Part shown: positions 1,813-60,625 of the stretch, piece after piece
How positions within the stretch are numbered: the first letter of the stretch is position 1
Layout: each line of letters starts with the position of its first letter
DNA from: Boswellia sacra
Taxonomy: Eukaryota > Streptophyta > Magnoliopsida > Sapindales > Burseraceae
Direction of reading: 5' to 3'
Assembly (NCBI GenBank): GCA_013180625.2
Contig: SNVD02005050.1
Span: 154,180 to 218,179 of the forward strand
DNA length: 64,000 nucleotides
The notes under the pieces: generated by a model
Told to the model about the DNA's origin: nothing
Database searches by the model: none
Seen by the model: only the letters and a program-made list of their open reading frames with translations
Program-made: the position numbers and the translations under genes

Positions 1813-1929
1813 TAGAAAGAAGAAGTTTAGACGAACATGTAAGAAAAAACAGGAAGCGAATCGGATGAAAAACGAAAAAGTTAGGCACGAATGAACACCC
1901 GAATGGAGGAATGGGCTTTATAGAAACCC

Positions 1930-30639: not shown

Positions 30640-31735
30640 ACAAACACTAGATTTCATCTTGACTCAATAGCCCGGAAGGTTCCAGGTTCGATTCTTGAGC
30701 TTCCTGATGATTTACTTGATGATGCGGGGGCTGATTGGTTGCGCTGTATTGTGAGATTTTTTTCGGGGTATACTATGCCTTTCCATGTTGCAAGTTCCAT
30801 TGCTATGCGTGCATGGAAGTCTAGTGCTTTGGAGGATGTCCGCTCTATTGGGACGGGTTTCTTGATATTCAAATTTAGAACGGTTGAGGAGGTTCATGAT
30901 ATTTTAGAAAGAGGGTCTTGGATGTTTGATGGGAAGCACATCATTCTGCAACAACAGAATCCTCATTTTTCTTTTGATCAGAGTAGGATTACCAAGATCC
31001 CAGTCTAGGTTCGATTGCATGGACTACCATTTCCATTATGGTCAGCTAAAGCACTTAGTGCTGTTTCTAGTATGGTTGGTCGACCATTATCATGTGACAG
31101 GATGACTTATGAGCACACTCGGTTATCTTATGCCAGGGTTTGTGTTGAGATAGATGCGGACCATTCTCCAATGCAGGACTTTGAGATCCGGTGTAAACTA
31201 TCTTTTGAACCTATCAAGATCAGAGTGGAATATGAATGGAAACCAAAACGTTGCTCCAAGTGTTGTTTATTTGGCCATACCTGTCCTGTGCCTATCGTGC
31301 ATTCTTCTTCTAGAGAGGCCGAGGCACCAGATACTACTATAGCCCTTGTCTTACGAGACAATGGGAAGACGGATGACCCTTCTATTGCAGCAGCAGTCCA
31401 TATTGAGACTGGTTAGGATCCGGGTATTACTACAGACGTAACTCCAGCTCTGCAAGACAAAAGTAAACTTACTGCCACTGGCTCGGGTTCTGAGTCTACT
31501 TCTGATTCTGATTCACTATCTCCTATTGAGGATCACTAGGATCAGATTTTGAAGGGCTCTTCTATCCCAATAGTTGATTCTGATCCTTCAGGGATTGCTC
31601 ATTCAGAAAAGTTTATTGCTCCGGATCCTCCTGCTTCCATTGAGATGGCTTCAGACGGTCGACCACCTACTGGTAAGGCAAAAAAAGGTCATAATAAGAA
31701 GGGTGGCTATGGGGGTAAAGGGGGCATGCGCCCCT
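30640..31735 (+). pseudogene. LINE ORF1 (nucleic-acid-binding protein), broken
   Basis: The frame reads FRTVEEVHDILERGSWMFDG and LHGLPFPLWSAKALSAVSSM, then a zinc knuckle CSKCCLFGHTC near 31250-31283, and a Ser/Asp-rich then Lys/Gly-rich tail (KKGGYGGKGG) to the stop at about 31735. This is the DUF4283-plus-zinc-knuckle layout of plant L1 ORF1 proteins, which coat LINE RNA. In-frame stops at about 31006 (TAG) and near 31415 and 31538 break it. A methionine before 30739 is not clear. ORF2 starts about 40 bases further on. Confidence 0.7.
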
Positions 31736-31776
31736 GATGATTTCTTTATTGAGTTCTGAGATTTTTCCAGCTTCCT

Positions 31777-33425: not shown

Positions 33426-33488
33426 TTAGTTTTATTTCATATTATCGTAGTTGCTCGAGGACTAGCAAAGTCTAAGTGTGGAGGAATT
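33411..33488 (+). other. Extra piece of LOG-element 3' end (with polypurine tract) upstream of its left LTR
   Basis: gattctatttcggtttagtt and the following 60 bases match 42380-42452, the last internal segment before the right LTR. They include the polypurine tract gtgtggaggaatt (gtgtgggggaatt on the right). A normal insertion would have LINE sequence directly next to the LTR. The junction with the LINE lies within a shared TTGATTCT.TTTC. Confidence 0.8.
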
Positions 33489-34900
33489 TGGTAAGTGTCT
33501 ATTTATATATCATTTTCATATCAATTCGTCCATGTTTCGTTGCTATATTCCTTGGTATTTTTACGTTTTTGTGTGGTTTCGATATTTGTAGGAGTTTTGG
33601 AGCAACTTGCACAAAAATGGAGTAAAACACTTCATTTTTACCTTTGCTAGTCAACCATATTCTCGAATTTAATTGTATTGATATACAATGAACCCGATGA
33701 CATATTATATACCGTTGGAAAGCTCTCGAAGTCTATTTTCTGGAGAAATTTATGGTTTATAAATCCATTCAGTGTACCAAAAGTTGTAATCAAAACAGTG
33801 TGAGAAGTATAGAAATGTAATTCCACAAATCACTGTAGCATGTATAATACGGGACACTGTAGCAGGTTATTGTAGCAGAGTATTTAAACACATTTTAGGG
33901 TTTTATTTTCATAACTTGAAGGGAGGAGAACGTGGTGGAGGCTTCAGCTCTGGAATTCTTTAATCTCCTGGAGTTCTTGAAGGAGAAAGGAAGCTTGGAA
34001 AGAGGAAGAACTACAATCCAAAGAGAATTACATCAAATTTGCTAAGTTTTTCCCTTCCCTTTCATTTTCTGGAATGTCTCCATGTTATATTGTATTTACC
34101 ACGTTCTTAAACATGTGTAACTGAATCTGAATTGGTTGAGGGTGATTTCAAAGCCCCTGATATGGTTTTTGTAAGTTGATTGTGCAAGAAGTTGTTATCC
34201 AATTCTCTAATTGAATTTGCTTGTATTTTCCTATATCTAATGCTTATGATTGCTTGCTGGATTGTATTTCGAATGACCAACTGAATATAATCTAGTTGTT
34301 GTTTATTGCTAGACTAGAAATCTTGATCCGTAATTGTCTTGAATTTCTAATCCTTAGTAGCAAAATTGTGATCAGAGATTGCAATTGGAGAATACAACCT
34401 AAGTTAAATAATCCGAGCTTGTGTGTTTATTGCTTAGATCAACCTATCTTTCTTATCATAATGCATCCATTGAATTAAATTTAGAGAGCTTGTTCTAGGT
34501 TGTTTAATGGATAGAGATTAAATAAAGAGCCTGTTTTATTTAACAACAAAGTAAGGAAAGATTGGGATAACAGAGCTTGTTGTTATCTACGGTTGATAAT
34601 TTCAATGGTGTAATTGGATGACAATTCTACAATTAATTCGCAAATCCATATCTTGTGGTAGAGAGGGATCTCTTAACCAGGTTACTCTCATTGATTTTTC
34701 ACTCTATTTTACTTTGTGTTGTTTTATTGGGCATTTACATTAATATTTCATTTAGTTAATCCATCAACAAAACCCCCCCATTTATCTATTGTTGCTGTAA
34801 AATAACAAATTCAATTAGAATCAATCCTCGTGGGAACGATATCTTACTTATCACTTTATTACTTGTGCGACTAGTATACTTGCTAGTTTCGAACGCATCA
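33489..34900 (+). repeat. Left LTR of LOG element copy 1, with promoter motifs
   Basis: It begins tggtaagtgtct (TGATAAGTGTCT elsewhere) and ends gaacgcatca. Three near copies of cactgtagca (33831-33840, 33855-33864, 33868-33877) stand directly before a TATA-like tatttaaa (33881-33888). The same arrangement occurs in every LTR of the family. No gene. Confidence 0.9.
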
Positions 34901-34906
34901 AGTTTT

Positions 34907-34924
34907 TGGCGCCGTTGCCGGGGA
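34907..34924 (+). other. Primer-binding site of LOG element copy 1
   Basis: tggcgccgttgccgggga lies six bases after the LTR end. It is the tRNA-Asp-type PBS common in Athila and related plant Ty3/gypsy elements (assignment from memory). Confidence 0.85.
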
Positions 34925-35013: not shown

Positions 35014-37030
35014 ATGGCAGTAAACTTCTATCAATTCGGTAGCAGATTTGAGCCACAACTACCATGGAGAGTAAATGAGGTAAGCACTTCGAACATTGAA
35101 CAACAACTTTTTGAGTTAACTTCTCTCGCGGAAAACATGGTTGTGGAACATATGCAGAAATCTTATGCATTTAAGGTATATTCTACCATGGAGCATCCAA
35201 TCGACATGTATCCAACTTTGCAAGGAGATATGGAACAAGCCAATGCCGTGAATGGATTTTCAGGACAACAAGGCAATGGTATAATCCCTTCTCTAACACT
35301 TACAATGCTAGATGGGAAGATCACCCTAATTTCAGTTACTGGAATCATCAACCAATCGTCCCAGATGCCATACCAAATCAACTACAAGGTTTTAATCAAC
35401 CTAGAGTGCAGCAACCATTTCAAATGCAACCACCACCAATGCCACAACCAGCACCACAACCAGCTGCAGAAAACTCAGGTATGTCACTCCAGGATATTGT
35501 TAATGCACTTGCCACTAACACTATGCAATTCCAGCGGGAAACTGGGGCAAGTATCCAAAACTTGGCAAATCAAATGGGACAATTGGCTACTAGCATGAGC
35601 AAATTCGAGGGCCAAGACTCAGAAAAATTATCTTCTCAAACGTTGATCAATCCAAGAGAGAATGCTTGTATGATAACTTTGCAAAATGGAGAGCAATTAG
35701 ATGTCCTGCCAAAGAAATCACAAACTGATGAAGAAGATGACACCACTTCCACCATGAACAAGACATCATCCTCTAAGGTATGTCTTAAAACTGCTATTCC
35801 TTCTTATGTTACTCCTCCACTTTTTCCTAGCAGATTGACAAAATTGAAGAAGGAGGAACAAGAACAAGAAATCCTGGAAACTTCTCGTAAAATCGAGATA
35901 AATATACCACTTCTGGATGCTACCGAGCAAGTACCTTGTTACACAAAATGTCTCAAGGAGTTATGCACCAACAAGAGAAATTTAAAAGGGAATGAGAAAG
36001 TAAGTATAGGGGAAAATGTTTCAATTGTACTACAAAGAAAAATTCCTCCGAAATGCAATGATCCAGGTACGGTCACCATTCCACGCACCATTGGTAAAAC
36101 CAAGTTTGAAAGAGCTATGTTAGATTTAGGAGCATCTATTAATGTCATGCCATTTATTTATGCTTCTTTAAATCTTGGACCTTTTGCGAAAACTGGTATT
36201 ACCATTCAGTTTGCTGATCATTTTAATGCGTATCCCAAAAGAGTTGTGGAAGATGTGCTTGTGCAGGTGAATCAATTGGTTTTCCCAGCAGACTTCTATG
36301 TCCTTAAAATAGAGGATGAGACATCTCCTAATCCAACACCGATTCTTTTAGGGAGACCATTCTCAAAAACTGCTAGAACAAAGATTGATGTTCATGATGG
36401 CACTCTCACCATAGAGTTTGATGGCAAGGTTATCCGTTTCAATATTTGTGAGGCAATGAGGTACCCTAGTGACTTACATTCTGTTTTTGCAGTTGACGTT
36501 ATTGATTATTTGCCACAACAATGTTTTGAGTTAACTCGCAAGAATGGATTGGAAATGGCTATTAGTGAGGACATAGGGACAGAAAATTCCAAAGAACCAA
36601 GAAGGTTGATATAAGTGTCCAAAGAAATGGAGGAAGCTATGGCATGCTTAGATGAGACTATAGCTATAATCACAAACAGGTATGATGTTTCGTACATTGA
36701 ATTGCCTTTATCTAATGAGAAACTTCTTCCTTCTGTGATGAAAGCCAATACCTTGGAGCTTAAGCTACTTCCGGATTATTTGAGGCATGTGTTTTTGGGT
36801 GAGAATGATTCTTTGCCAGTTATAATAGAAATGGGCCTTGCACCATACAAGAAGAGAAACTCGTCCAAGTACTTAGAGATCACAAAATAACTATTGGGTG
36901 GACGATTGCTAACATCCAAGGCCCAGCCATATGCATGCAAGAATTCTTGTTGGAAAAAGGATCCAAGCCCACTAGAGAAGCACAGCGGAGATTGGACCCT
37001 CCCATGATGGAACCAAAGTCAGGCTGAGGA
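35014..37030 (+). pseudogene. Gag C-terminal part, protease and RT lead-in of LOG element copy 1
   Basis: The ATG at 35014 gives MAVNFYQFGSRFEPQLPWRV, an N-terminus not typical of gag. The capsid core is missing. After a frameshift near 35265 the frame 35406-36614 has a Pro/Gln-rich stretch, SLQDIVNALATNTMQFQRET, and a protease with an intact-looking active site LDLGASINVMP and ILLGRPFSKTARTKIDVHDG. A stop replaces a Gln codon at about 36612. 36615-36890 is the conserved linker (KANTLELKLLPDYLRHVFLG), and 36890-37020 keeps the first RT residues (EAQRRLDPPMM) before homology ends. So protease remains but RT is deleted exactly at its start. Confidence 0.8.
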
Positions 37031-37471: not shown

Positions 37472-39466
37472 ATGGATGCCGATATCTTTGTGTCAAACCT
37501 TCGTAAATATTTCCCTTCACTTCTGATGCGTTCGAAACTAGCAAGTATACTAGTCGCACAAGTAATAAAGTGATAAGTAAGATATCGTTCCCACGAGGAT
37601 TGATTCTAATTGAATTTGTTATTTCCAGCAACAATAAACTAAACAGGGGGGATTTTTGTTGATTGATTAACTTGATGAAATAAGAATGCAAGTAAAGAAT
37701 AACAAAACAGAAAGTAAATTTGAATGAAAAATCAATGGGAGAAAGCTGGTTAAGGGATCCTTCTCTACCACAGATATGGATTTGCGAAGTAATTCTAGAA
37801 TTGTCATCTAATTACAGCATTGAAGTTATCAACCGTAGATAATAACAAGCTCTATTACCCCAATCTTTCCTTACTTGTTGTTAAATAAAACAAGCTCTTT
37901 ATTTAATCTCTATCCATTAAACAACCTAGAACAAGCTCTCTGAGTTTAATTCAATGGATGCATTATGATAAGAAAGATAGGTTGATCTAAGCAATAAACA
38001 CACAAGCTCGGATTATTTAACTTAGGTATATTCTCCAATTGTAATCTCTGATCACAATTTTGCTACTAATGATTAGAAATTCAAGACAATTACGGATCAA
38101 GATTTCTAGTCTAGCAATAAATCAATACCAGATTATATTCAGTTGGCCACTCAAATACAATCAGCAAGCAATCATAAGCATTAAATATGGGAGAATACAA
38201 GCAACTTCATTAGAGAATTGGATAACAATTCCTTACACAATCAACTTACAAAAACCATATCAGGGGCTTTGAAATCACCCTCAACCAATTCATAGTCAGT
38301 TACACATGTTTAAGAACGTGGTAAATACAATACAACATGGAGACATTCCAGAAAATGAAAGGGAAGGGAAAAAACTTAGCAAATTTGATGTAATTCTCTT
38401 TGGATTGTAGTTCTTCCTCTTTCCAAGCTTCCTTTCTCCTTCAAGAACTCCAGGAGATGAAAGAATTCTAGAGCTGCAGCCTCCACCACGTTCTCCCCTC
38501 TTCAAGTTATGAAAATAAACCCTAAAATGTGTTTAAATATTCTGCTACAGTAACCTGCTACAGTGTCCCGTATTATACATGCTACAGTGATTTGTGGAAT
38601 TACATTTCTATACTTCTCACACTGTTTTGATTACAACTTTTGGTACACTGAATGGATTTATAAACCGTAAATTTCTCCAGAAATTAGACTTCGAGATCTT
38701 TCCAACGGTATATAACATGTCATCGGGTTCATTGTATATCAATACAATTAAATCCGAGAAGATCACTGACTAGCAGAGGTGAAAATGAAGGTTTTTACTC
38801 CATTTTTGTGCAAGTTGCTCCAAAACTCCTACAAACATCAAAACCACACAAAAACATAAAAATACCAAGGAATATAGCAAAGAAACATGGACGAATTGAT
38901 ATAAAAGTAATACATAAATAGACACCTATCAACTTCCTCAAAATGCTGTGTATAAAATTTATAAAGTGCGGATGACTAGACTTTGGGTGTTGATGCTCCT
39001 AAATGTGCCTGCGGATATCCGATGGTTTATCGAAGCCAAGGTAAGATTGTCCGGTGAGCCTGATATTAACCTAGCAAAATACATGCCTGGTCTAGGAAAG
39101 AGCTACTACGCCAATAGGAAAAGAGCAAAAAGGTTACAAGCATGTTATAAATGTGCTAGATGGAATTGTAACCAGACTTGTCGTTCATTAGGTTTTGTGT
39201 CCAGAAATAGAGAAGATAAACTGTTATTTATTAAGAATGGTCTAAGTAATGAGTCGCTGGATAATGTTTTATTAAATCTTGAGTCACATTCTTGTGGACT
39301 TGTCCAGCGTGAATTGCTTAATCTATGGACATAATTTCGTGATGAATTGCAGTGTTATAGTCTAGGGAATCTGACTAAAAACGACCCTGTTTGCCAGTTT
39401 ATAAGAAACTGGATGGGAAGCAAATCCCCGACTCATAGAAGGCGTTTCAGCCGTTACTGGACGTAA
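37472..39466 (+). pseudogene. Cys-rich ORF of LOG element copy 1, split by a solo LTR
   Basis: The start at 37472 and first 16 codons are followed by the solo LTR with its duplicated target (37519-38936), then the frame resumes from about 38937. It contains basic KSYYANRKRAKRLQACYKCA and a CX2CX4CX3C cluster near 39130-39180. A TAA at 39332 stands where copy 2 has a Gln codon. The frame then continues to 39466, ending in a basic SPTHRRRFSRYWT. The likely C-terminus therefore differs from that of copy 2, which has a one-base insertion there. See the copy at 56033-56587 for likely identity. It is dead in this copy. Confidence 0.7.
37524..38931 (-). repeat. Solo LTR of family A nested in the Cys-rich ORF
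   Basis: It is a complete minus-strand LTR (tgatgcgttcg ... acacctatca, 1,408 bp) flanked by acttc at 37519-37523 and 38932-38936. Copy 2 has the unbroken site (in sense, cccttcacttcctcaaaa), so the insertion and its 5 bp duplication are proven by comparison. Recombination between LTRs of a full insertion would leave this. Confidence 0.95.
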
Positions 39467-39660: not shown

Positions 39661-39840
39661 ATAAGCACACGTGGGAGACAAGTGTGGAGGTTTTGTCAAC
39701 CTCCACTGAAAGTATATCTTTACTTTTCATGCTTCACGTGGGAGACAAGTGTGTAGGTTTTGTCAAACCTCGCTGAAAGCATATCTAATTTTTTCAAATC
39801 TTAGGGCGATAAATCTGCATCGAGCAACCCCCATCGAAAT
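39661..39840 (+). repeat. Tandem G-box/hairpin units (two plus a partial), copy 1
   Basis: Units of about 67 bp each hold CACGTGGGAGACAAGTGT (G-boxes at 39668-39673 and 39735-39740). A hairpin follows: gtggaggtt-ttgtc-aacctccac at 39684-39706, then gtgtaggttttgtcaaacctcgc at 39751-39773. A final partial unit ends near 39840. Copy 2 has three full units. The array stands between the Cys-rich ORF and LOG. G-boxes are common plant promoter elements, so it could be a promoter or an RNA structure. Both are inference. Confidence 0.75.
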
Positions 39841-39991: not shown

Positions 39992-40642
39992 ATGGAGAAA
40001 ACACCAATTCGGCGATTCCAAAATATATGCGTATTTTGTGGATCGCAATTTGGTAAAGATGGAGAGTTTACAACATCAGCTCTTGATCTTGGTAGGACAT
40101 TAGCTGCGAGGGGTATTCATTTGATTTATGGAGGGGGTAGTCTTGGGTTAATGGGTTGTGTGTCGATAGTTGCATCCCTATGAGGGAGCAAAGTTCTTGA
40201 CATTATCCCTAAACCATTAGCTGTACGAGATATCGTAGGCAACACAATCGGGGAAGAGTTACAGGTCTCTAGCATGCATGAGCATATTGCACATATGGTT
40301 GTTAAGTCCGATGCATTTATAGCTTTGCCTGGTGGTTATGGTACATTAGAGGAGATATTTCAAATCACCTCTTAGGCACAGCTAAACATCCATAAGAAAC
40401 CCATTGGTTTGTTAAATGTCAATAATTTTTTTGATGGTTTGTTGTCCTTTCTTGATCAAGCTGTAGAAAAAAACTTAATCTCACCGTCGGCGAGGCAAAT
40501 CTTGGTTACAGCTTCAACTGCAGTGGAGTTAATTGATAAACTTTAAGAATTCGTCTATTCGCCTGATCCAACAACGGCTCGGATAGATTGGTTTGAAGAA
40601 GGCAATAAAAGGCGTATACTGGATTTAACGCTCCATCTGTAA
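39992..40642 (+). pseudogene. LOG: LONELY GUY (LOG) cytokinin-activating enzyme, captured copy 1
   Basis: LOG enzymes (cytokinin riboside 5'-monophosphate phosphoribohydrolase, cytosol/nucleus) release the active cytokinin base from its nucleotide. The frame is 216 codons plus stop, the family's usual length, with no intron and no frameshift. Motifs: CVFCGSQFGKDGEF near the N-terminus, LIYGGGSLGLMG, SDAFIALPGGYGTLEE (residues 113-121 for PGGYGTLEE), and GLLNVNNFFDGLLSFLDQAV. Three in-frame stops kill it: TGA at 40181, TAG at 40373, TAA at 40544. All three are sense codons in copy 2. The Arg of the MHxR motif, a catalytic residue in the family, is His here (MHEHIAHM). Host LOG genes have several introns, so this came from spliced RNA. 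Neighbours are the hairpin array and the element's 3' region. Confidence 0.9.
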
Positions 40643-42452
40643 TCTCTATCTATTGGTTTGCTTCGTTTTTGTTTACTTTCGTTTTAGGTGTTTATTTGAG
40701 ATTTTTCATGTTATTTCTTTTGAGTTTTTTTCAGGTTATTTCTTTCGCCCCAGGTAATATTTTATAATCGTGGCTTTTAGAGTGGCGGCTTAAAAAGTTC
40801 AATTCCTCTTGAAATGCATTCTGGATCTCTTCAATCCATAATGGCTGAATAAGGAGGCTAACTTCTAACTTTTTAGACCCATTCTAACTGACTTGTTTTT
40901 GTTTGCTGGCTTGTTGGACTTTGTTCTTTTATGAGTAAGTTTAGTTTTGTGTAATTTAGAGTTGTTGTGTGTTTTTGTCTTTATCAGTTTCGATTCGAAA
41001 AAAAAAAAACATTGTGGAAAAACTTGAGAATGGCAGAATATGGGGTTTCCTTAACTCTTGAAACGCATTCTCTCTAAATAAATCTGTAGTTTGTTTATTT
41101 CATGTTGTTTGAAGTGTCTTGTTTCTTGTTTTGTTCTTTCATAATATACATTTCAAGCATACAGATCCATGCATCATTTATCATTTTCCAAGAGTTATTC
41201 TTAATTCAATCATTGCCTTATCATTGACCCACAACATTGAGCACCGAGCCATTATCACTGAGTTATTTGTTTACTTAGAGAAGGTTTATGCAATTTAAGT
41301 GTTTGTTCAGATTTCAATGAATTCTAGAACCTGTTTGATGGTACTCGAGGTGAAATCCTAGACTGTGCAATATTGGGGAAATGATTTAGGCCATCTTTGG
41401 ACCGTTTGAGCCTTAATAGCCAACCTTGATTGAAATTGATCCTTAGTTACCCTTTTGAGCCTTTGTAAGCCTTTGTTAACTCACTAAAAAGATTTCCTAA
41501 CCCCAAATGATTTTTTTTTTCAAACAGTTTGTCCCTTACCTATGAGCATGTAGATCATTCACGATGACATTTTGAATTATGTTCTGGTTTTGGGAAGTCA
41601 GAGGAGGTTGGATAGTGCCATGAGCAATGCAAGTGAGTTTTATTATGTTTGTAAAAAAAAAAAAAGAAAAAAAACAATCTGTACTTATCTTTCACGTACT
41701 TAAACATTGAGGACAATGTGCTATTTAAGTGTGGGGAAGGGGAATTGCAGTTAAAGAAAAAAAAAGAAGAAAAAGATATCTATACCCTTGGGTGTTCTTA
41801 AAAAGAATGAAACAACAAAGTGTGGAGGTGTAGTTTCTTTTGTTTTCTTAAAAAAAAAAAGAGAAAAAAAGAAAAAAAAAGATTGAGTGTTCCAAATAAG
41901 TTTGGGAGAGTAACCTGGTGAATTGAAATAAAGTTGTGTTATAGGGTTGACTCTATATAATCTTGAATGATTTATATGTTTGTGGGTGATTTGAGCCAAA
42001 TTATTATACTTTATCATACCTTCACCCAAGCCAAACGTTACAAGCTTAATAAAGTCCTACTGGATCCTTGGTATTGTGCATGTCTACATTAGTGGAGAGT
42101 GACTTGAAAAGCAGGCCTATGGAGTTCGTTTATACACACATCTTTACTATTAAATATGATTCATTTTTATGCATAAATTCGTCCGGGTTACAAGTGATCA
42201 GGTGAGAATGGCTCTACACACACACACTTGAGGAATTGAAGTGAAGCGAAACTAATCTTTGAGATAAAATTCTTGATCAAGTGCATTATTTTGAAGTTTT
42301 CCTTGGGTTATAATTAATTACAATCTTTGAGGCTTATTTGCAAGATGAAGCATTTGTATGTTTTAATTTTTTGTTGATTCTGTTTCGGTTTAGTTTTATT
42401 TCACATTGTCGTAGTTGCTCGAGGACTAGCAACGTCTAAGTGTGGGGGAATT
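40643..42452 (+). other. 3' region and polypurine tract of LOG element copy 1
   Basis: About 1.8 kb with no gene. It has A-runs, the phrase ttaagtgtggggaaggggaa (about 41725), and gtgtgggggaatt as polypurine tract directly before the right LTR. Parts (41330-42300) resemble the relic at 46420-47120, so this 3' region is shared across related Ty3/gypsy families. Confidence 0.7.
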
Positions 42453-43865
42453 TGATAAGTGTCTATTTATATATCATTTTCATATCAATTCGTCCATGTT
42501 TCTTTGCTATATTCCTTGGTATTTTTTATGTTTTTGTGTGGTTTTGATGTTTGTAGGAGTTTTGGAGCAACTTGCACAAAAATGGAGTACAACCCTTCAT
42601 TTTCACCTCTGCTAGTCAACCATCTTCTCGGATTTAATTGTATTGATATACAATGAACCCGATGACATATTATATACCGTTGGAAAGCTCTCGAAGTCTA
42701 TTTTTCTGGAGAAATTTACGGTTTATTAATCCATTCAGTGTACCAAAAGTTGTAATCAAAACAGTGTGAGAAGTATAGAAATGTAATTCCACAAATCACT
42801 GTATCATGTATAATACGGGACACTGTAGCAGGTTACTGTAGCAGAGTATTTAAACACATTTTAGGGTTTTATTTTCATAACTTGAAGAGGGAAGAACGTG
42901 GAGGAGGCTGCAGCTCTGGAATTCTTTCATCTCCTGGAGTTCTTGATGGAGAAAGGAAGCTTGGAAAGAGGAAGAACTGCAATCCAAAGAGAATTACATC
43001 AAATTTGCTAAGTTTTTCCCTTCCCTTTCATTTTCTGGAATGTCTCCATGTCGTATTGTATTTACCACGTTCTTAAACATGTGTAACTGAATCTGAATTG
43101 GTTGAGGGTGATTTCAAAGCCCCTGATATGGTTTTTGTAGTTGATTGTGCAAGAAGTTGTTATCCAATTCTCTAATTGAATTTGCTTGTATTTTCCTATA
43201 TCTAATGCTTATGATTGCTTGCTGGATTATATTTTGAATGGCCAACTGAATATAATCTGGTTGTTCTCTATTGCTAGACTAGAAATCTTGATCCGTAATT
43301 GTCTTGAATTTCTAATCCTTAGTAGCAAAATTGTGATCAGAGATTGCAATTGGAGAACACAACCTAAGTTAAATATTCCGAGCTTGTGTGTTTATTGCTT
43401 AGATCAACCTATCTTTCTTATCGTAATGCCTCCATTGAATTATATTTAGAGAGCTTGTTCTAGGTTGTTTAATGGATAGAGATTAAATAAAGAGCCTGTT
43501 TTATTTAACAACAAAGTAATGAAAGATCGGGATAACAGAGCTTGTTGTTATCTACGGTTGATAATTTCAATGGTGTAATTGGATGACAATTCTACAATTA
43601 ATTCGCAAATCCATATCTTGTGGTAGAGAAGGATCTCTTAACCAGGTTACTCTCTTTGATTTTTCACTCTATTTTACTTTGTGCTGTTTTATTATGCATT
43701 TACATTAATATTTCATTTAGTTAATCCATCAACAAAGCCTCCCTATTTATCTATTGTTGCTATAAAATAACAAATTCAATTAGAATCAATCCTCGTGAGA
43801 ACGATATCTTACTTATCACTTTATTAATTGTGCGACTAGTATACTTGCTAGTTTCGAACGCATCA
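42453..43865 (+). repeat. Right LTR of LOG element copy 1
   Basis: It runs tgataagtgtct ... gaacgcatca, 1,413 bp, closely matching the left LTR with scattered substitutions and small indels. It is directly followed by LINE ORF2 sequence (ggggttaagg). Confidence 0.9.
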
Positions 43866-45681
43866 TGGGGTTAAGGACGATCGATATTCCAGAGTGTATG
43901 GTTCGATGGATCGCGACGTGCATGTCTTCTGCACATTTCTCTATTGCTTTAAATGGAGAGTTTCATGGTTTTTTTCCCACCTCCAGAGGAGTTCGACAGG
44001 GTGATCCGCTGTCACCATACTTTTGTGTGTTGGCAATGGAGGGTTTGAATGGTATTCTTCGGGAGGCTTCTCAGAGGCCTGGTTTTCGATATCATTGGAG
44101 ATGTCAGCAGGTCTCTCTCACTCATCTTTGTTTTACAGATGATCTGATGGTTTTTTGTAGGGCAGATGCGGGCTCTGTTAGTCTAGTTCGTAATGCTTTG
44201 CAGAAGTTTGCAAAGCTCTCTGGTTTAGTAACGACTTCTGCCAAGAGTCATGTATTCTTTTCTGGAGTCAATGATGAGGACCGAATTATGTTGTAGGCCA
44301 TCTTGGGTTTTCAGGTGGGGAGTCTGCCAGTTAGATATTTAGAAGTGCCTCTGATTAGTACCAGATTGCGCTCTTCAGATTGTACTCCATTGATAGAACG
44401 AATTCTATCGAGGGTCAGGTTATGGACATCTGCTATGTTGACTTATGCTGGCCGTCTTCAGTTAATCAAGTCGGTACTTTTTTCCATACAGGTCTATTGG
44501 TCATCCATATTCATATTGTCGGCAACTATGGTGCAAAAGATTGAGGGTATTCTGGCTGCTTTCCTGTGGAGAGAGACCTCTTTGTCTCGTTCTGGGGCCA
44601 AAGTAGCTTGGGATTCGGTTTGCTATCAGTTAAAGGAAGGAGGATTGGGAATTAAGCGAGTGAAGGAATGGAATCAGGCCGCTATTCTAAAGCATGTTTG
44701 GAGACTTATTTCTGATAAGTCCTCCACATGGTCTTCTTGGGTTCATAAAGTACTCCTTCAGGGCCGCTCGTTTTGGTAGGTTCGAGTTACTTCTGGAGCG
44801 TCCTGGTTTTAAAGGAAGATTTTGCACAGTCGAGATTAGTGTAGGGATAAATTTATCTCTTGTATTGGAGATGGTCGTGACACCTCACTTTGGTAGGATT
44901 ACTGGTTGCCACAAGGGCCTCTTTGTGATTTGTTTTCTTTCAGAAATCTTTCATCTACAGGTCTTCCCTCAGATGCCAAGGTCTCCGCTATTATTCAGAA
45001 TAGGGATTAGACTTTTCCTGATGGTGGATCGGCCCTTGGACGAATTTGGGACACTATCAGCTTCCGGCCTATGATGGGGACCCCTGATCGTATTGTTTGG
45101 AAGGGCCACACCTCTGGAGTTTTCTCCATTGCCTCAGCATGGGAGTTTTTACCGAGTAGACGAGTCGTGAATTCATTTCATCATCTTCTTTAGTTCCTGG
45201 CCATATTCCAAGACACTCTTTTATTCTTTGGCTTGCCTCCTTGGGTCGTCTTCGTACTATGGATCAATTACAGCGTCATGGCATGTTATCCTCTTCGGGC
45301 TGTGTTCTCTGTGCCTCAGCAAATGAGACTCATGAGCATCTTTTCTTTAGATGTCCTTTCTTGTCTTCTGTATGGGAGGAGATTACAGCTAAGACTCTCA
45401 ATGTTTGGCCATCTTATGATTTGCTCACTCTACTTCATTGGGCTTCTCTTCATCTTCAGGGTAGAAAGAATTTTGAGCATATCCTTACACGTTTGGTCTT
45501 TTCTGCCACAATTTATTTTCTATGGTATGAGAGGAATGATCCTGTGTATCAGCAGCGTCGTTGGACTTGTTGTCAGGTGATTGATGAGATTTTTACCTTG
45601 GTTCGCTCTCGGCTTCTAACCTTGGAGGCCAAGTATGTGATCACTCCTCAACTTCGTGCCATATGGGGTCTTCATCATTAG
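43866..45681 (+). pseudogene. LINE ORF2, C-terminal part: reverse transcriptase and zf-RVT region
   Basis: RT continues with TSRGVRQGDPLSPYFCVLAM and the catalytic HLCFTDDLMVF, whose two Asp residues are intact. A stop follows at about 44295, then YLEVPLISTRLRSSDCTPLI and VYWSSIFILSATMVQKIEGI, a stop at 44777 and frameshifts near 44780-45240. The zf-RVT-like segment GCVLCASANETHEHLFFRCP is near 45300-45360, ending at 45681. A roughly 60-residue piece between the two halves of RT is missing, so this LINE could not be restored just by removing the LOG element. 45682-45960 is its 3' untranslated end with the A run. Confidence 0.8.
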
Positions 45682-51391: not shown

Positions 51392-52802
51392 TGATGCGTT
51401 CGAAACTAGCAAGTATACTAGTCGCACAAGTAATAAAGTGATAAGTAAGATATCGTTCCCACGAGGATTGATTCTAATTGAATTTGTTATTTCCAGCAAC
51501 AATAAACTAAACAGGGGGGATTTTTGTTGAATGATTTACTAAATGAAATAAGAATGCAAGTAAAGAATAACAAAACAGAAAGTAAATTTGAATGAAAAAT
51601 CAATGAGAGAAAGCTGGTTAAGGGATCCTTCTCTACCACAAGATATGGATTTGCGAATTAATTGTAGAATTGTCATCTAATTACAGCATTGAAGTTATCA
51701 ACCGTAGATAATAACAAGCTCTATTACCCCAATCTTTCCTTACTTTGTTGTTAAATAAAACAAGCTCTTTATTTAATCTCTATCCATTAAACAACCTAGA
51801 ACAAGCTCTCTGAGTTTAATTCAATGGATGCATTATGATAAGAAAGATAGGTTGATCTAAGCAATAAACACACAAGCTCGGATTATTTAACTTAGGTTAT
51901 ATTCTCCAATTGTAATCTCTGATCACAATTTTGCTACTAATGATTAGAAATTCAAGACAATTACGGATCAAGATTTCTAGTCTAGCAATAAATCACAACC
52001 AGATTATATTCAGTTGGCCACTCAAATACAATCAGCAAGCAATCATAAGCATTAAATATGGGAGAATACAAGCAACTTCAATTAGAGAATTGGATAACAA
52101 TTCCTTACACAATCAACTTACAAAAACCATATCAGGGGCTTTGAAATCACCCTCAACCAATTCAGATTCAGTTACACATGTTTAAGAACGTGGTAAATAC
52201 AATACAACATGGAGACATTCCAGAAAATGAAAGGGAAGGGAAAAACTTAGCAAATTTGATGTAATTCTCTTTGGATTGTAGTTCTTCCTCTTTCCAAGCT
52301 TCCTTTCTCCTTCAAGAACTCCAAGAGATGAAAGAATTCCAGAGCTGCAGCCTCCACCACGTTCTCCCCTCTTCAAGTTATGAAAATAAAACCCTAAAAT
52401 GTGTTTAAATACTCTGCTACAGTGACTTGCTACAGTGCTCCGTATTATACATGCTACAGTGCTTGTGGAATTATATTTCTATACATCTCACACTGTTTTG
52501 ATTACAACTTTTGGTACACTGAATGGATTTATAAACCGTAAATTTCTCCAGAAAATAGACTTCGAGAGCTTTCCAACGGTATATAACATGTCGTCGGGTT
52601 CATTGTATATCAATACAATTAAATCCGAGAAGATCAGTGACTAGCAGAGGTGAAAATGAAGGGTTTTACTCCATTTTTGTGCAAGTTGCTCCAAAACTCC
52701 TACAAACATGAAAACCACACAAAAACATAAAAATACCAAGGAATATAGCAAAGAAACATGGACTAATTGATATAAAAGTAATACATAAATAGACACCTAT
52801 CA
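51392..52802 (-). repeat. 3' LTR of LOG element copy 2
   Basis: It runs tgatgcgttcgaaac ... acacctatca. It is followed by aattcccccacac, the inverted polypurine tract (52803-52816). Confidence 0.9.
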
Positions 52803-54776
52803 AATTCCCCCACACTTAGACTTTGCTAGTCCTCGAGCAACTAAAATGATACGAAACAAAACTAAACCGAAACAGAATCAACAAAAATTAAAACACACAA
52901 ATGCTTCAACTTGCAAATAGGCCTCAAAGATTGTACTTAATTATAACCCAAGGAAAACTTCAAAATAATGCACTTGATCAAGAATTTCATCTCAAAGATT
53001 AGTTTCGCTTCACTTCAATTCCTCAAGTGTGTGTGTGTAGAGCCATTCTCACCTAATCACTTGTAACCCGGATGAGTTTATGCATAAAAAATGAATCATA
53101 TTTAATATTGAAGATGTGTGTATAAATGAACTCCATAGGCCTGCTTTTCAAGTCACTCTCCACTAATGTAGACATGCACAACACCAAGGATCAAGTAGGA
53201 CTTTATTAAGCTTGTAACGTTTGGCTTGGGTGAAGGTATGATAAAGGATAATAATTTGGCTCAAATCACCCACAAACACATAAATCATTCAAGACTATGT
53301 AGAGCTCAACCCTATAACACAACTTCATTTCAATTCACCAGGTTACTCCCCCAAACTTATTTAGAACACTCAATCTTTTTTTTTTTTTTTTTTGCAGAAA
53401 ACAAAAGAAAACTACACCCCCACACTTTGTTGTTTCATTCTTTTTAAGAACACTTAAGGGTATAGATCTCTTATTCTTCTTTTTTTCTCTTTTTTTTTCT
53501 TCTTTTTTTTTTATTACACTTCCCCTCCCCCACACTTAAACAACACATTGTCCTCAATGTGTAAGTGCGTGGATGATAAGTACAGATTGTTTTTTTTTTC
53601 TGTTTTCCTTTTTTTTTATTTAAACACAATAGAACTCACTTGTATTGCTCATGACACATCCCAACCTCCTCTAACTTCCCAAAACCAGAACATAGCTCAA
53701 AATTTAATTGTGAATGATCTACATGCTCATAGGTAAGGGATAAACTGTTTGGAATAAATTCATTTGAAGTTAGGAAATCTTTTAGTGAGTTAACAAAGAA
53801 AAAGGCTTACAAAGGCTCAAAGGGGTAACTAGGGATCAATTTCAGTCAAGGTTGGCTATTAAGGCTCAAACGGTCCAAAGATGGCCTAAATCATTTCCCC
53901 AATGTTGCACAGTCTAGGATTTCGCCTCGAGTGACCATCAAACAAGTTCTAGAATTCATTGAAATCTGAAGAAACATTTAAATTACATAAACTTTCTCTA
54001 AGTGAACAAATAACTCAGTGATAATAGCTCAGTGCTCAATGTTGCGCAAGGAATCAAAAGCAAAGCGAAAACCAATAAACATTTCAAGCACACAGATCCA
54101 TGCATCATTTATCATTTTCCAAGAGTTATTCTTAATTCAATCATTATCTTATCATCGACCCAAAAATGCAAGAAAAGAGGTACGTGGCATTGTTACACCT
54201 GAGTCAAGATTGTATATTTCAACAATCCTTAGGACCAGTAGCCCGCAGACTTAAGGTTTCCAGCCTATATACCTTTATTATGAAAGAACAAAACAAGAAA
54301 CAAGACACTTCAAACAACATGAAATAAACAAACTACAGAGTTATTGAGAGAGAATGCGTTTCAAGAGTTAAGAAAACCCCATATTCTGCCATTCTCAGGT
54401 TTTTCCACAATTGTTTTTTTGAAATCAAAACTGATAAAGATAAAAACACATAACAACTCTAAATTACGCAAAACTAAACTCACTCATAAAATAACAAAGT
54501 TCAACAAGTCAGCAAACAAAAACAAGTTAGTTAGAATGGGTCTAAAAAGTTTAGAAGTTAGCCTCCTTATTCAGCCATTATGGATTGAAGAGATCCAGAA
54601 TGCGTTTCAAGAGAACTTGAACTTTTTAAGCCACCACTCTAAAAACCGAGATTAGAAAATATTACCTGGGACGAAAGAAATAACCTGAAAAAGCTCAAAA
54701 GAAACGACATGAAAAATCTCAAATAAACACACTAAAAAGAAAGCAAACAAAAACGAAGCAAACCAGCAAATAGAGA
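52803..54776 (-). other. 3' region of LOG element copy 2
   Basis: It is collinear with 40643-42452. It contains T-runs (53380-53395, 53480-53512) and no credible gene. Reading frames here are composition-driven. Confidence 0.7.
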
Positions 54777-55424
54777 TTACAGATGGAGTGTTAAATCCAG
54801 TTGACGCCTCTTATTGCCTTCTCCAAACCAATCAATCCGAGCTGTTGTTGGATCAGGCGAATAGACGAATTCTTGTAGTTTGTCAATTAACTCCCCTGCC
54901 GTTGAAGCTGTAACAAGGATTTGCCTCGCTGATGGTGAGATAAAATTTTTTTCTACAGCTTGATCAAGAAAGGACAACAAACCATCAAAAAAATTATTGA
55001 CATTTAACAAACCAATGGGTTTTGATGGATGTTTAGCTGTGCCCAAGAGGTGATTTGAAATATCTCCTCTAATGTACCATAACCACCCGGCAAAGCTATA
55101 AATGCATCAGACTTAACAACCATATGTGCAATACGCTCATGCATACTAGAGACCTGTAACTCTTCCCTGATTGTGTTGCCTACGATATCTCGTACAGCTA
55201 ATGGTTTAGGGATAATGCCGAGAACTTTGCTCCCTCCTAGGGATGCAGCTGTGACACACACCCCATTAACCCAAGACTACCCCCTCCATAAATCAAATTA
55301 ATACCCCTCGCAGCTAATGTCCTACCAAGATCAAGAGCTGCTGTGGTAAACTCTCCATCTTTACCAAATTGCGATCCGCAAAATATGCATATATTGCGGA
55401 ATCCCGAATTGGTGTTTTCTCCAT
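54777..55424 (-). pseudogene. LOG: LONELY GUY (LOG) cytokinin-activating enzyme, captured copy 2
   Basis: Start codon at 55424 (minus), same as copy 1. Total span is 648 bp against 651 in copy 1. The difference is three separate one-base deletions: near codon 8, just after LMGCVS, and within the NIHxxP segment. Each shifts the frame. Between them all family motifs are seen: LIYGGGSLGLMG, GGSKVLGIIPKPLAVRDI, MHERIAHM with the catalytic-type Arg kept, FIALPGGYGTLEEIFQITSW, and GLLNVNNFFDGLLSFLDQAV. The codons that are stops in copy 1 read Gly, Trp and Gln here. So the two copies decayed independently from a shared, probably intact, ancestor. No introns. The product as it stands would be truncated and inactive. 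Confidence 0.9.
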
Positions 55425-55559: not shown

Positions 55560-55812
55560 GGGACATACTTTCGGTGGGGGTTGCTCGATGCAGATTTATC
55601 GCCCCAAGATTTGAAAAAATGAGATATGCTTTCGGCGAGGTTTGACAAAACCTACACACTTGTCTCCCACGTGAAGCATGGAAAATGGAGATACACTTTC
55701 GGCGGGGGTTGACAAAACCCCCACACTTGTCTCCCACGTGAAGCATAAAAAATAGAGATCCACTTTCGGTGGAGGTTGACAAAACCTCCACACTTGTCTC
55801 CCACGTGTACTT
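55560..55812 (-). repeat. Tandem G-box/hairpin units (three plus a partial), copy 2
   Basis: CACGTG occurs at 55668-55673, 55735-55740 and 55802-55807. Each unit also holds an inverted repeat: gtggaggttgacaaaacctccac (the 20-base core at 55770-55789), the g-rich version at 55702-55724, and a third at about 55635-55657. Stem changes are paired: GGAGG with CCTCC in one, GGGGG with CCCCC in another. It lies upstream of LOG in the LOG direction, as in copy 1, with one more unit. Confidence 0.75.
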
Positions 55813-56032: not shown

Positions 56033-56587
56033 CTATGAGTCGGGGATTTGCTTCCCATCCAGTTTTCTTATAAACTGGCAAACAGGGTCGTTTTTAGTCA
56101 GATTCCCTAGACTATAACACTGCAATTCATCACGAAATTGTGTCCATAGATTAAGCAATTCACGCTGAACAAGTCCACAAGAATGTGACTCGAGAGTTAA
56201 CAAAACATTATCCAGCGACTCATTACTCAAACCATTCTTAATAAATGAAAGTTTATCTTCTCTATTCCTGGACGCAAAACCTAATGAACGACAAGTCTGG
56301 TTACAATTCCATCTAGCACATTTATAACATACTTGTAACCTTTTCGCTCTTCGCCTCTTGGCGTAGTAGCTCTTTCCTAGACCAGGCATGTATTTTGCGA
56401 GATTAATGTCCGGCTCACCGGACAATCTCACCTTGGCTTCGATAAGCCATCGGATATCAGCAGGGACATTTAGGAGCATCAATGCCCAAAGTCTAGTCAT
56501 CCGTACTTTATAAATTTTAAACACAGCATTTTGAGGAAGTGAAGGGAAATATTTACGAAGGTTCGATAGAAAGATATCAGCATCCAT
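56033..56587 (-). CDS. Cys-rich basic ORF of the LOG element (184 residues), intact in this copy
   Basis: An uninterrupted frame from ATG at 56587 gives MDADIFLSNLRKYFPSLPQN, a middle with IRWLIEAKVRLSGEPDINLA, a basic block GKSYYAKRRRAKRLQ, a CX2CX4CX3C cluster (VCYKCARWNCNQTCRSL, about residues 86-98), and an acidic/hydrophobic C-terminal half. I do not recognise it with certainty. The basic block followed by a Cys cluster and an FIKNGLS-like segment recalls the small cysteine-rich nucleic-acid-binding proteins of some flexuous plant RNA viruses (carla/viti type), but it is longer and the Cys spacing differs. It could equally be a captured host gene. A one-base insertion near the end changes the C-terminus relative to copy 1. 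Not an Athila gag or pol part. Confidence 0.55.
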   Translation of the reverse strand: MDADIFLSNLRKYFPSLPQNAVFKIYKVRMTRLWALMLLNVPADIRWLIEAKVRLSGEPDINLAKYMPGLGKSYYAKRRRAKRLQVCYKCARWNCNQTCRSLGFASRNREDKLSFIKNGLSNESLDNVLLTLESHSCGLVQRELLNLWTQFRDELQCYSLGNLTKNDPVCQFIRKLDGKQIPDS

Positions 56588-57118
56588 TGAAGAGAAGAAA
56601 AGGAGAGATATTACCGATAATGCGATTGAGTTTGTTCTTCTCCCAGATATGCACGTTTCAAACCTTCGAACAATGGCTTCAACTCCCGTTTGAATGTTTC
56701 CTCAAGCTGTTGCACAACTGAACTCGAAGCACGGAATAATCAAATTAAACACAAGAAAAGAAAAGAAAAGAGCGGAAACGAAACTAAAGACACATAAAAG
56801 AGATAAAACACAATAGCAAACAAAAGTCAAAAACAAGTAAAAAATATAAAAACGAATAAGACAGATGGCAAAGAGAGATAAAACCTGATCAATTTGATGG
56901 CCTATGAAAGAAATCTCCTCGAGACAAAAAAATCGATCATTATTACCTCATTTTATTTTTCTTTTCTTCTTTTTTTATTTTTCAAAAACATTGGGTTGCC
57001 TACCAATAAGCGCTTGGTTTAACGTCCCTACAGCCCGAACGTTTGGGCCATCATGGGAGGATCCAATTTCGTTGTGTTCTCTAACTGGGGCTTGGATCCC
57101 TCTTCTAACCAAGATACG

Positions 57119-57601
57119 TCAAGCATATGATGGCCTTGGGATGTCAACAATTGTCCACTCAATAGTATTTTGTGCTCTGTAAGTCTCGGACGAGTTGCTC
57201 GTCTTGTATTCGTGCAAAGGCCACATTACTTTTTTTAACTGGCAAAGTATCATTCTCACCCAAAATCCATGATTCAAATGATCTGGAAGTGACTTAAGCT
57301 CCAAGGTATTGGCTTTCATCACAAAAAGAAGAAGTTTCTCATTAGATAAAGGCAATTCAATGTACGAAACATCATACCTATTGGTGGTGATAGCTATAGT
57401 CTCATCCAAGCTTGTCACAGCTTCCTCCACTTCTTTAGACACTTGTATCAGCTTTCTTGGTTCTTTGAAACTTTCTATCCTTATGTGTTCACTAATAGCA
57501 ACATCGACTCCATTCTTGCGAGTTAACTCAAAACATTGTTGTGGCAAATAATCAATAACGTCACCTGCAAAAACCAGAATTGTCAGTCATTAGAGTACTC
57601 A

Positions 57602-57660
<59 letters not shown>

Positions 57661-59102
57661 CCCCCCCCCCCCCCCCCCCCATCAAAAATATAAAACACCT
57701 CACCTTGCCATAAACTCTATGGTCAGAGTGCCATCATGAACATCAATCTTGGTTCTAGCAGTTTTCAAGAATGGTCTCTCTAAAAGAATCGGTGTTGGAT
57801 TAGGGGATGTCTCATCCTCTATTTCAAGGACATAGAAGTTTGCTAGGAAAACCAATTGATTCACCTGCACAAGCACATCTTCCACAACACTTTTGGTAAG
57901 TTGAATGGTAATATCAGTTTCCGCAAAAGGTCCAAGATTTAAAGAAGCATAAATAGAATATGGCATGATGTTAATAAATGCTTCTAAATCTAACGTAGCT
58001 CTTTCAAACTTAGTTTTACCAATGGTGCATGTAATGGTGAACGTACCTGAATCTTTGTATTTCGAAGGAATTTTTCTTTGTAAAACAGTTGAAACATTTC
58101 CCCCACACTTACCTTCTCATTTTCTTTCAACTTTCTCTTGTTGATGCATAACTCCTTGAGAAATTTTGCATAACGAGGTAATTGCTTGATAGCATCCAGA
58201 AGTGGTATATTTACCTCGATCTTGCGAAAAGTTTCCAAGATTTCCTGTTCTTGTTCCTTCTTCTTCGATTTTACGAATCTACTAGGAAAAGGTGGAGGAG
58301 AAACATATGAAGGAATGAGGGTTATAGGATTTACCTGAGAAGTCAATGTTTTGTTCATGGTGGAAGTGGTGTCATCTCCTTCATCAGTTTGTGATTTCCT
58401 TGGCAAGATATCTAATTGCTCTCCACCTTGCGAAGTTATCGCACTAACAGTCTCTCCTGGATTGATCACCGCTTGAGAAGATAATTTTTCTAAGTCTTGG
58501 CCCTCAAATTTGCTCATGCTAATAGCCAATTGTCCTATTTGATTTGCCAAGTTTTGGATACTTGCCCCAGTTTCCTGCTGGAATTGCATTGTGTTAGTGG
58601 CAAGTGCATTAACAATATCTTCGAGAGACATACCTGAGTTTTGCGAAGCTGGTTGCGGTGCTGGATGTGGCATTGGTGGTGGTTGCATTTGAAATGGTTG
58701 CTGCACTCTAGGTTGATTGAAACTTTGTGGCCGATTTAGTATCACATTTGGAGTGATTGGTTGATGATTCCAGTAACTGAAATTATGTTGATCTTCCCAT
58801 CCAGCATTGTAAGAGCTAGAGAAAGGATCATACCATTGCCTCGTTTGTCCTGGAAATCCACCCATGGCATTGGCTTGTTCCATATATTCTTCTTGTAAAG
58901 TTGGATACATATCGATTGGATGCTCCATCGTAGAATATATCCCACATTCAAAAGATTTTTGCATATCTCCTACAGCCATGTTTTCCACAAGAGAGGTTAG
59001 CTCAGAAAGTTGTTGTTCAATGTTCGGAGTGCTTACCTCATTCACTCTCCATGGTATTTGTGGCTCAAATCCGCTACTGAATTGATAGAAGTTTACTGCC
59101 AT
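57119..59102 (-). pseudogene. Gag C-terminal part, protease and RT lead-in of LOG element copy 2
   Basis: From ATG at 59102 a long frame runs to 57990. It has MAVNFYQFSSGFEPQIPWRV, WYDPFSSSYNAGWEDQHNFS, SLEDIVNALATNTMQFQQET and IPLLDAIKQLPRYAKFLKEL. A frameshift separates the protease, where the active site reads LDLEAFINIMP (DLGAS in copy 1), so catalysis is lost. 57966-57700 continues VVEDVLVQVNQLVFLANFYV to KIDVHDGTLTIEF. A poly-A/poly-G tract then interrupts. 57547-57119 is the linker (KANTLELKSLPDHLNHGF). RT is missing as in copy 1. Confidence 0.8.
57600..57681. repeat. Homopolymer tract: about 58 T-rich then 21 C
   Basis: On the minus strand it is G-run then A-run. It lies where copy 1 reads gaggcaatgaggtaccctag (about 36450-36470). 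It breaks the protease frame. It may be a true slippage expansion or a sequencing/assembly artefact. Confidence 0.8.
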
Positions 59103-59192
59103 GTTGTCTAAACACAAATAATCAGAAAAGAAAAACAAAGAAAATATGAATCAACAATGAAAACAAAATAACAAATCGATTAGAAAATCAAT

Positions 59193-59210
59193 CCCCGGCA
59201 ACGGCGCCAA
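59193..59210 (-). other. Primer-binding site of LOG element copy 2
   Basis: On the minus strand it is tggcgccgttgccgggga, identical to copy 1, six bases from the LTR end. Confidence 0.85.
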
Positions 59211-59216
59211 AAACTT

Positions 59217-60625
59217 GATGCGTTCGAAACTAGCAAGTATAATAGTCGCACAAGTAATAAAGTGATAAGTAAGATATCGTTCCCACGAGGATTGATTCTA
59301 ATGGAATTTGTTATTTCCAGCAACAATAAACTAAACAGGGGGGATTTTTGTTGAATGCTTACTAAATGAAATAAGAATGCAAGTAAAGAATAACAAAACA
59401 GAAAGTAAATTTGAATGAAAAATCAATGGGAGAAAGCTGGTTAAGGGATCCTTCTATACCACAAGATATGGATTTGCGAATTAATTGTAGAATTGTCATC
59501 TAATTACAGCATTGAAGTTATCAACCGTAGATAACAACAAGCTCTGTTATCCCAATATTTCCTTACTTTGTTGTTAAATAAAATAGGCTCTTTACTTAAT
59601 CTCTATCCATTAAACAACCTAGAACAAGCTCTCTAAATTAATTCAATGGATGCATTACGAAAAGAAAGACAGGTTGATCTAAGCAATAAACACACAAGCT
59701 CGGATTATTTAACTTAGGTTATATTCTCCAATTGCAATCTCTGATCACAATTTTGATACTAATGATTAGAAATTCAAGACAATTACGGATCAAGATTTCT
59801 AGTCTAGCAATAAATCACAACCAGATTATATTCAGTTGGCCACTCAAATACAATCAGCAAGCAATCATAAGCATTAAATATGGGAGAATACAAGCAACTT
59901 CAATTAGAGGATTGGATAACAATTCCTTACACAATCAACTTACAAAAACCATATCAGGGGCTTTGAAATCAACCTCAACCAATACAGATTCAGTTACACA
60001 TGTTTAAGAACGTGGTAAATACAATACAACATGGAGACATTCCAGAAAATGAAAGGAAAGGGAAAAACTTAGCAAATTTGATGTAGTTCTCTTTGGATTG
60101 TAGTTCTTCCTCTTTCCAAGCTTCCTTTCTCCTTCAAGAACTCCAAGAGATGAAAGAATTCCAGAGCTGCAGCCTCTACCACGTTATCCCCTCTTCAAGT
60201 TATGAAAATAAAACCCTAAAATGTGTTTAAATACTCTGCTACAGTGACTTGCTACAGTGCCCCGGATTATACATGCTACAGTGACTTGTGGAATTATATT
60301 TCTATACATCTCACACTGTTTTGATTACAACTTTTGGTACACTGAATGGATTTATAAACCGTAAATTTCTCCAGAAAATAGACTTCGAGAGCTTTCCAAC
60401 GGTATATAACATGTCATTGGGTTCATTGTATATCAATACAATTATATCCGAGAAGATCACTGACTAGCAGAGGTGAAAATGAAGGGTTTTACTCCATTTT
60501 TGTGCAAGTTGCTCCAAAACTCCTACAAACATCAAAACCACACAAAAACATAAAAATACCAAGGAATATAGCAAAGAAACATGGACGAATTGATATAAAA
60601 GTAATACATAAATAGACACCTATCA
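59217..60625 (-). repeat. 5' LTR of LOG element copy 2
   Basis: It runs tgatgcgttcg ... acacctatca. It has the same three ctacagt-type motifs (60239-60285) next to the TATA-like box on the minus strand. It is close to the 3' LTR and to the solo LTR at 37524. Confidence 0.9.

Follow-up and report, generated by a model that had tools for sequence, protein, structure and literature searches.

LTR retrotransposons of Boswellia sacra that carry a LOG frame beside a virus-like zinc-finger frame

Two LOG-bearing elements in the window

We analysed a window of 64,000 nucleotides from the Boswellia sacra genome (assembly GCA_013180625.2, contig SNVD02005050.1, positions 154,180 to 218,179); coordinates below are those of the window. 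It contains two LTR retrotransposons on opposite strands, both with LTRs of 1.4 kb and both lacking reverse transcriptase (RT) and integrase. Each has a remnant of gag-protease, a frame resembling viral nucleic-acid-binding proteins (hereafter NABP) and a LOG-family sequence. We presume from their motifs that they belong to the Athila lineage. The features are as follows.

Element 1
About 33410-33488, directly before the 5' LTR: remnant, the 3' internal end of another copy with its PPT
33489..34900, plus strand: 5' LTR
34907..34923, plus strand: PBS, TGGCGCCGTTGCCGGGG, which we take to be of the tRNA-Asp type
35175..36614, plus strand: gag-protease remnant frame, 479 codons from stop to stop
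37472..37523, plus strand: start of the NABP-like frame, broken off here; counterpart of the start of 56036-56587
37524..38931, minus strand: solo LTR, an antisense insertion in the NABP-like frame, with ACTTC on either side
38932..39430, plus strand: remainder of the NABP-like frame (residues 17-182; 90% identity with element 2)
39668..39800, plus strand: tandem pair of short-hairpin units in the NABP-LOG interval
39992..40642, plus strand: LOG copy 1 (PF03641), 216 codons with three in-frame stops, pseudogene
42438..42452, plus strand: PPT
42453..43865, plus strand: 3' LTR

Element 2
59216..60625, minus strand: 5' LTR
59193..59209, minus strand: PBS, TGGCGCCGTTGCCGGGG
57119..59150, minus strand: gag-protease remnant, spread over three separate frames
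56033..56701, minus strand: NABP-like open frame, 222 codons, first Met at 56587
55630..55810, minus strand: three hairpin units in tandem, in the NABP-LOG interval
54777..55424, minus strand: LOG copy 2, pseudogene, fragmented over several frames by small indels
52803..52817, minus strand: PPT
51392..52802, minus strand: 3' LTR

Element 1 is a compound structure, in that its 5' LTR follows the 3' end of a different copy. The LTRs of each element differ little from each other (K2P of 0.036 in element 1 and 0.025 in element 2), and both insertions are therefore fairly recent. We saw no target duplication at element 2, where the flanks read CTCTT and ACAGT. The gag-protease frame of element 1 had no Pfam match of its own; a related frame elsewhere in the genome (L043:3805-5868) matched Asp_protease_2 weakly (E 6e-4), under the Pfam cut-off.

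The initial annotation of the window described a full-length, intronless LOG gene inside an LTR retrotransposon at 39992-40642, and a second one in an element of the same layout at 54777-55424. The elements, with their LTRs, PBS and PPT, are as described, and the first LOG is indeed intronless and 216 codons long. The three stops in copy 1 and the frameshifts in copy 2 nevertheless rule out an intact LOG in the window. What the initial annotation overlooked is that the cargo is, to judge from profile matches, a two-gene cassette with a virus-like second gene.

The tandem units between NABP and LOG combine a short hairpin, GTGGAGGTT-TTGTC-AACCTCCAC, with a CACGTG box. We counted 103 of them, spread over 50 of 71 sources, a set in which some loci overlap. 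The common types show paired changes (GGAGG/CCTCC versus GGGGG/CCCCC), which hints at a conserved RNA or DNA hairpin; other units pair worse, with a mean of 5.5 of 8 pairs.

Other repeats surround the two elements. A LINE with DUF4283, endonuclease, RVT_1 and zf-RVT matches (plus strand, 30601-33426 and 43799-45678) is divided by element 1. Further retroelement remnants lie on the minus strand at 22205-22630 and 23505-23908, with an RVT_3 RNase-H-like frame and a weak match to the RT of the pol-bearing locus L042 described below. Another repeat family is present in three to four diverged copies, approximately 61-87% alike, at about 11835-13155, 28322-29616, 48635-49188 and 62601-63709.

Copies, linkage and relatives in the host genome

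We searched the host assembly (639 Mb in 7,431 contigs) with exact protein motifs. Such counts overlook mutated copies and may be inflated by duplicated haplotypes, which are possible among the contigs; two of the loci that we extracted (L052 and L053) hold the same frame, and the 27 full LOGs represent 26 distinct sequences. With these provisos, the element LOG motif MHERIAHM, in all its codons, was found at 3,908 sites, the canonical plant LOG motif MH(Q/E)RKAEM at 15 and the NABP finger motif at 3,540, each with no site for the reversed-pattern control. The element motif thus exceeds the host's canonical one about 260 to 1. The multiplication of a LOG-bearing Athila-like element, as put forward in the initial annotation, is borne out by these numbers. 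Introns in the LOG, or its presence at a single host locus, had been named there as evidence that would speak against capture and spread. Neither was found, as the LOG is intronless and lies inside an Athila-like element that multiplied.

The two cargo frames travel together. In the contig stretch where the lists of NABP and LOG places overlap, 56 of the 88 listed NABP sites were followed on the same strand by a LOG, at a distance of 1,112-1,348 bp downstream; no site showed a wrong arrangement. LOG was present in 26 of the 30 loci selected by NABP. Two of the four misses stop before the LOG position (L019, L036) and two lack LOG (L023, L027); L023 is cut upstream of NABP yet extends past the LOG position, and is a true miss. 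Conversely, NABP was present in 26 of the 28 loci selected by LOG (absent from L001 and L068).

Many copies are open, and many others have decayed. Searches with At2g37210 and PF03641 gave, respectively, 143 and 150 matches without a stop among 150 scored, shares that are biased because only the best-scoring copies of 13,090 and 10,198 candidates were scored. When loci were selected by the other gene, LOG was open in four of the 20 with a full LOG, and NABP in eight of the 23 with a full NABP.

The window elements have a pol-bearing sibling (L041/L042), with an LTR 89% like that of the window. It encodes, in this order, a gag-like frame, a protease-side region, RVT_1, RNaseH (RT_RNaseH), the integrase core (rve), NABP and LOG; L042 thereby has the RT-RNaseH-integrase order of Gypsy elements. 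The gag-like frame is 35% identical over 135 residues to a frame of the locus L040 that matches Retrotrans_gag. The pol of this sibling is split over three frames, which makes it a defective copy too, and none of the loci examined held an intact autonomous element. The initial annotation had called the LOG carrier non-autonomous. This applies to the window copies, which lack pol, but not to the carrier as a whole, since the sibling with RT, RNaseH and integrase has the same NABP and LOG.

Among the 30 NABP-selected loci, the region shortly upstream was the protease-side region in 22, integrase in six and neither in two. In 13 of the 22 pol-less loci the protease-side region is followed by the first 31 residues of an RT frame of the L042 type. 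Because this RT start was retained, the pol-less elements, those of the window included, have the appearance of pol-bearing elements that underwent an internal deletion.

We also found a second family (L039/L040). Its LTRs are 98% alike mutually, have CTCTC on either side and gave no match to the window LTR. The PBS TGGCGCCGTTGCCGGGG adjoins the second-family LTR as it does both window 5' LTRs. Besides a gag of its own, this family has NABP and LOG frames that are both open and are 67% and 68% identical, respectively, to their window-type counterparts. No RT or integrase domain was detected in the second-family frames scanned, and no tandem hairpin unit was found in L039/L040. Between gag and NABP, L040 has a frame of 360 codons (814-1893, minus strand) with a hydrophobic run near its end; it had no Pfam match, and is possibly env-like or a protease remnant.

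The cargo frames: relatives, pocket residues and selection

The open NABP frame of element 2 matched Viral_NABP (PF05515, E 2.2e-10) and Carla_C4 (PF01623, E 4.4e-5), both above the cut-off. The PF05515 match spans profile positions 111-224 of 227. The divergent NABP of the second family also passed both cut-offs. PF05515 was confirmed in all 150 scored among 6,948 host-genome candidates, and in none of 14 control genomes, of which the named ones are prokaryotes. The frame has an AKRRRAKR-type basic patch and a finger, CX2CX4CX3C, with four cysteines that are invariant in alignments of five and seven frames; 37 further frames were selected by the finger motif itself, and are uninformative on this invariance.

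Relatives in these two Pfam families include the cysteine-rich nucleic-acid-binding proteins of carlaviruses, allexiviruses and mandariviruses. Suppression of RNA silencing is reported for these viral proteins, one of which acts as a transcription factor that causes hyperplasia (PMC12172455). Carlavirus-type proteins, as presented there, and the NABP frame have in common the two profiles, the basic patch and the four-cysteine finger. The NABP frame differs from the viral proteins in being encoded by a retrotransposon at high copy number, and its silencing suppression is putative. IMG/VR gave no viral relative of the NABP frame, PHROGs and the PDB gave no match to it, and its AlphaFold model is poor (pLDDT 49). 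Viral homology is therefore suggested here by the profile matches.

LOG copy 1 matched PF03641 with an E-value of 2.6e-33, and its best solved relative is At2g37210 (E 8e-62), which we take to be AtLOG3. The element LOG scored above the curated cut-offs of PF03641 and TIGR00730. It reached 115 and 113.8 bits with the NCBIfam equivalog NF058542, below the cut-off of 300, which authentic plant LOGs may or may not pass. The predicted fold (mean pLDDT 70) had plant LOG structures as top matches (2a33, E 1e-18). At2g37210, the protein of 2a33, is 52% identical to the element LOG and shares its fold, the PGGxGTxEE motif and the catalytic Arg and Glu. The element LOG differs from such plant LOGs in that it is intronless, lies within an element and has the pocket Lys and Glu replaced. 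No viral relative of the element LOG was confirmed in IMG/VR.

The pocket residues can be read against the LOG of Corynebacterium glutamicum. In the published structure of that enzyme, the prenyl pocket consists of Met96, His97, Lys100, Glu125 and Trp129, and Lys100 belongs to both the adenine and the prenyl pockets; activity was almost lost when AMP-site or catalytic residues were changed to Ala (PMC4979012). Residues R98 and E121 of the element LOG, which by motif correspond to the catalytic Arg99 and Glu122 of C. glutamicum, are invariant. Both families keep the Met, His and Trp of the pocket and lack the full set, having replaced Lys and Glu. In a survey of 44 frames, some places being counted twice in overlapping loci, the Lys100 position was Ile in 38, Met in three and Ser in one of the 42 readable frames, and the Glu125 position was Gln in all 44. 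The Lys version of the motif, MHERKAHM, has a single site in the host genome. The element LOG is predicted to free a base from a nucleotide 5'-monophosphate. As two residues of the cytokinin pocket are replaced, its substrate is uncertain, and cytokinin as its product is a guess.

Both genes appear to have been kept by selection although most of their copies decay, as judged from substitution patterns between and within families. Between the families, dN/dS was 0.187 for LOG (bootstrap 0.094-0.269) and 0.145 for NABP (bootstrap 0.065-0.258, with 273 of 300 resamples usable). Within the main family, each gene was analysed in 24 loci picked by the other gene. LOG had 339 synonymous, 325 non-synonymous and 14 stop differences (457, 1406 and 81 possible; pN/pS about 0.31), distributed over the codon positions as 170/135/373. 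NABP had 74, 65 and three (359, 1205 and 92 possible; pN/pS about 0.26). A 3' noncoding control read in an arbitrary phase gave 278/344/422, a weaker bias than that of LOG. Some young copy pairs have dN/dS near 1 (1.04 for LOG in L004-L007, 1.03 for NABP in L002-L005), as decay after insertion would give. If LOG had been captured twice, its between-family dN/dS could partly reflect host history; a single capture is favoured by the gene order and pocket changes common to both families. Since dS between the families exceeds 1, the age of the cassette can be given as "old" at most.

Origin, possible roles and meaning of the cargo

The gene order, copy number, linkage, pol-bearing sibling, second family and synonymous excess are observations, and we favour, with some reserve, one account of them: that an Athila-like lineage captured a virus-type zinc-finger gene and an intronless LOG, whose products are predicted to act on the host as accessory proteins. 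The source of the zinc-finger protein would be an RNA virus resembling betaflexiviruses or alphaflexiviruses; like its viral kin, the protein would bind nucleic acid, and either dampen RNA silencing or serve as a transcription factor. The LOG would derive from a spliced host mRNA and would act on a nucleotide 5'-monophosphate, freeing its base in a single step; the first-guess substrate is a cytokinin precursor. Both proteins would be made by the element for its own spread, through dampened silencing and a growth-promoting, cell-division state. The pol-less deletion derivatives would spread using the enzymes of pol-bearing siblings.

A bolder version of this account, which we regard as tentative, takes the pair as a portable host-manipulation cassette, i.e., a virus-derived silencing suppressor or transcription factor with a captured and retuned LOG, selected across families with divergent LTRs. 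Several observations speak against the favoured account: both window LOGs are dead, most copies not picked on the tested gene are not open, the pocket is changed, the NF058542 cut-off is missed, some young pairs have dN/dS near 1, the pol of the sibling is broken and the viral homology is one of profiles. If the bolder version were true, these elements would be an endogenous counterpart of the hormone-gene cassettes of plant pathogens, and division together with lowered silencing could give the element access to the germline.

The same pocket changes could instead mean that the element LOG is a relative with a changed substrate, cleaving some other nucleotide 5'-monophosphate than the cytokinin precursor, for example in nucleotide supply for reverse transcription or in host nucleotide signalling. 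We consider this possible, if doubtful. It would fit the retention of the catalytic Arg and Glu and of the Met, His and Trp beside the change of Lys to Ile or Met and of Glu to Gln in both families, the 3,908 sites of the Ile motif against one with Lys, and the low dN/dS, by which the altered protein would still be selected. The rest of the fold resembles plant LOGs, however, and the reading is drawn from sequence. That LOG and NABP are idle passengers, caught once and amplified, with a low dN/dS that precedes capture or comes from a few intact masters, is improbable in our view. Such a history would account for the 16 of 20 LOGs that are not open in NABP-selected loci, the two dead window LOGs and the young pairs near 1. 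It sits poorly with a second family of unmatched LTRs that retains both frames in the same order, with a synonymous excess within the family in samples not picked on the tested gene, and with the numerous open copies.

Two other alternatives concern the origin of the frames. The zinc finger might be non-viral, a protein born in the element or taken from the host, whose basic patch and four cysteines make it look like Viral_NABP. The profile nature of the evidence, the lack of a viral relative in IMG/VR and the poor AlphaFold model are in its favour, but two Pfam families were passed, the PF05515 match extends beyond the finger and the divergent family matches too, so that we hold a non-viral origin to be unlikely. 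Ordinary host LOG genes lying between LTRs by chance are refuted: nothing besides the two places in the window suggests them, and they would leave unexplained the 3,908 sites, the fixed spacing of NABP and LOG and the 143 of 150 scored At2g37210 matches without stop or intron.

The initial annotation knew of no described family dedicated to LOG. Steinbauerova et al. are said to have found, in 2011, two Athila-like elements with similarity to LOGL4. A LOG-family domain has in any case already been published in Gypsy elements of Citrus sinensis and C. clementina, and of Populus when a filter was dropped, according to PMC9289625, which cites Steinbauerova et al. The Citrus and Populus LOG/YgdH elements of that text resemble ours in having a LOG-family domain in an Athila-like Ty3/Gypsy element, and L041/L042 match the reported type, with the LOG domain in an RT-bearing Gypsy element. 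The section on these elements describes the extra domain, and mentions neither an NABP frame nor a number of copies, a test for selection or altered pocket residues; its consensuses are RT-based, so that pol-less copies like those of the window fall outside it (PMC9289625). Its Phalaenopsis Gypsy element with an AlkB m6A demethylase is a further parallel, being an LTR element that took up an enzyme and retained it while replicating repeatedly, and AlkB domains occur in plant RNA viruses too (PMC9289625). That element is of the Tat/Ogre type and has one enzyme with activity in vitro, whereas two cargo genes of predicted function are present here. Additional ORFs of plant LTR retrotransposons, as described in PMC7264820 and PMC11728184, are likewise extra frames beside gag-pol; they are mostly of unknown origin, whereas both cargo frames here have recognisable relatives.

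In the open-access titles and beginnings of abstracts listed we found no report of an NABP-type protein in a retrotransposon or of NABP paired with LOG. "Viral NABP" and PF05515 had no match in the open-access literature searched, PF01623 matched two papers, on glyoxalases by title, and term searches in PMC7145672 and PMC11593424 gave nothing on LOG in elements. Within the open-access listings and main texts covered, we have seen no report of a virus-type gene beside LOG, of such elements in these numbers, of both genes being under selection or of an altered pocket, and these appear to be new.

Extra genes are common in plant retrotransposons, but for most of them neither an origin nor a role can be recognised. 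In the present elements, a recognisable hormone-linked gene and a recognisable virus-like gene are joined, number in the thousands and seem to be maintained by selection. For annotation this is a warning, because most LOG-like matches in such a genome are genes of elements. The elements are also a source of LOG proteins in which the cytokinin pocket has been altered by nature. They make it testable whether plant retrotransposons carry genes that change their host, as viruses and gall-forming bacteria do.
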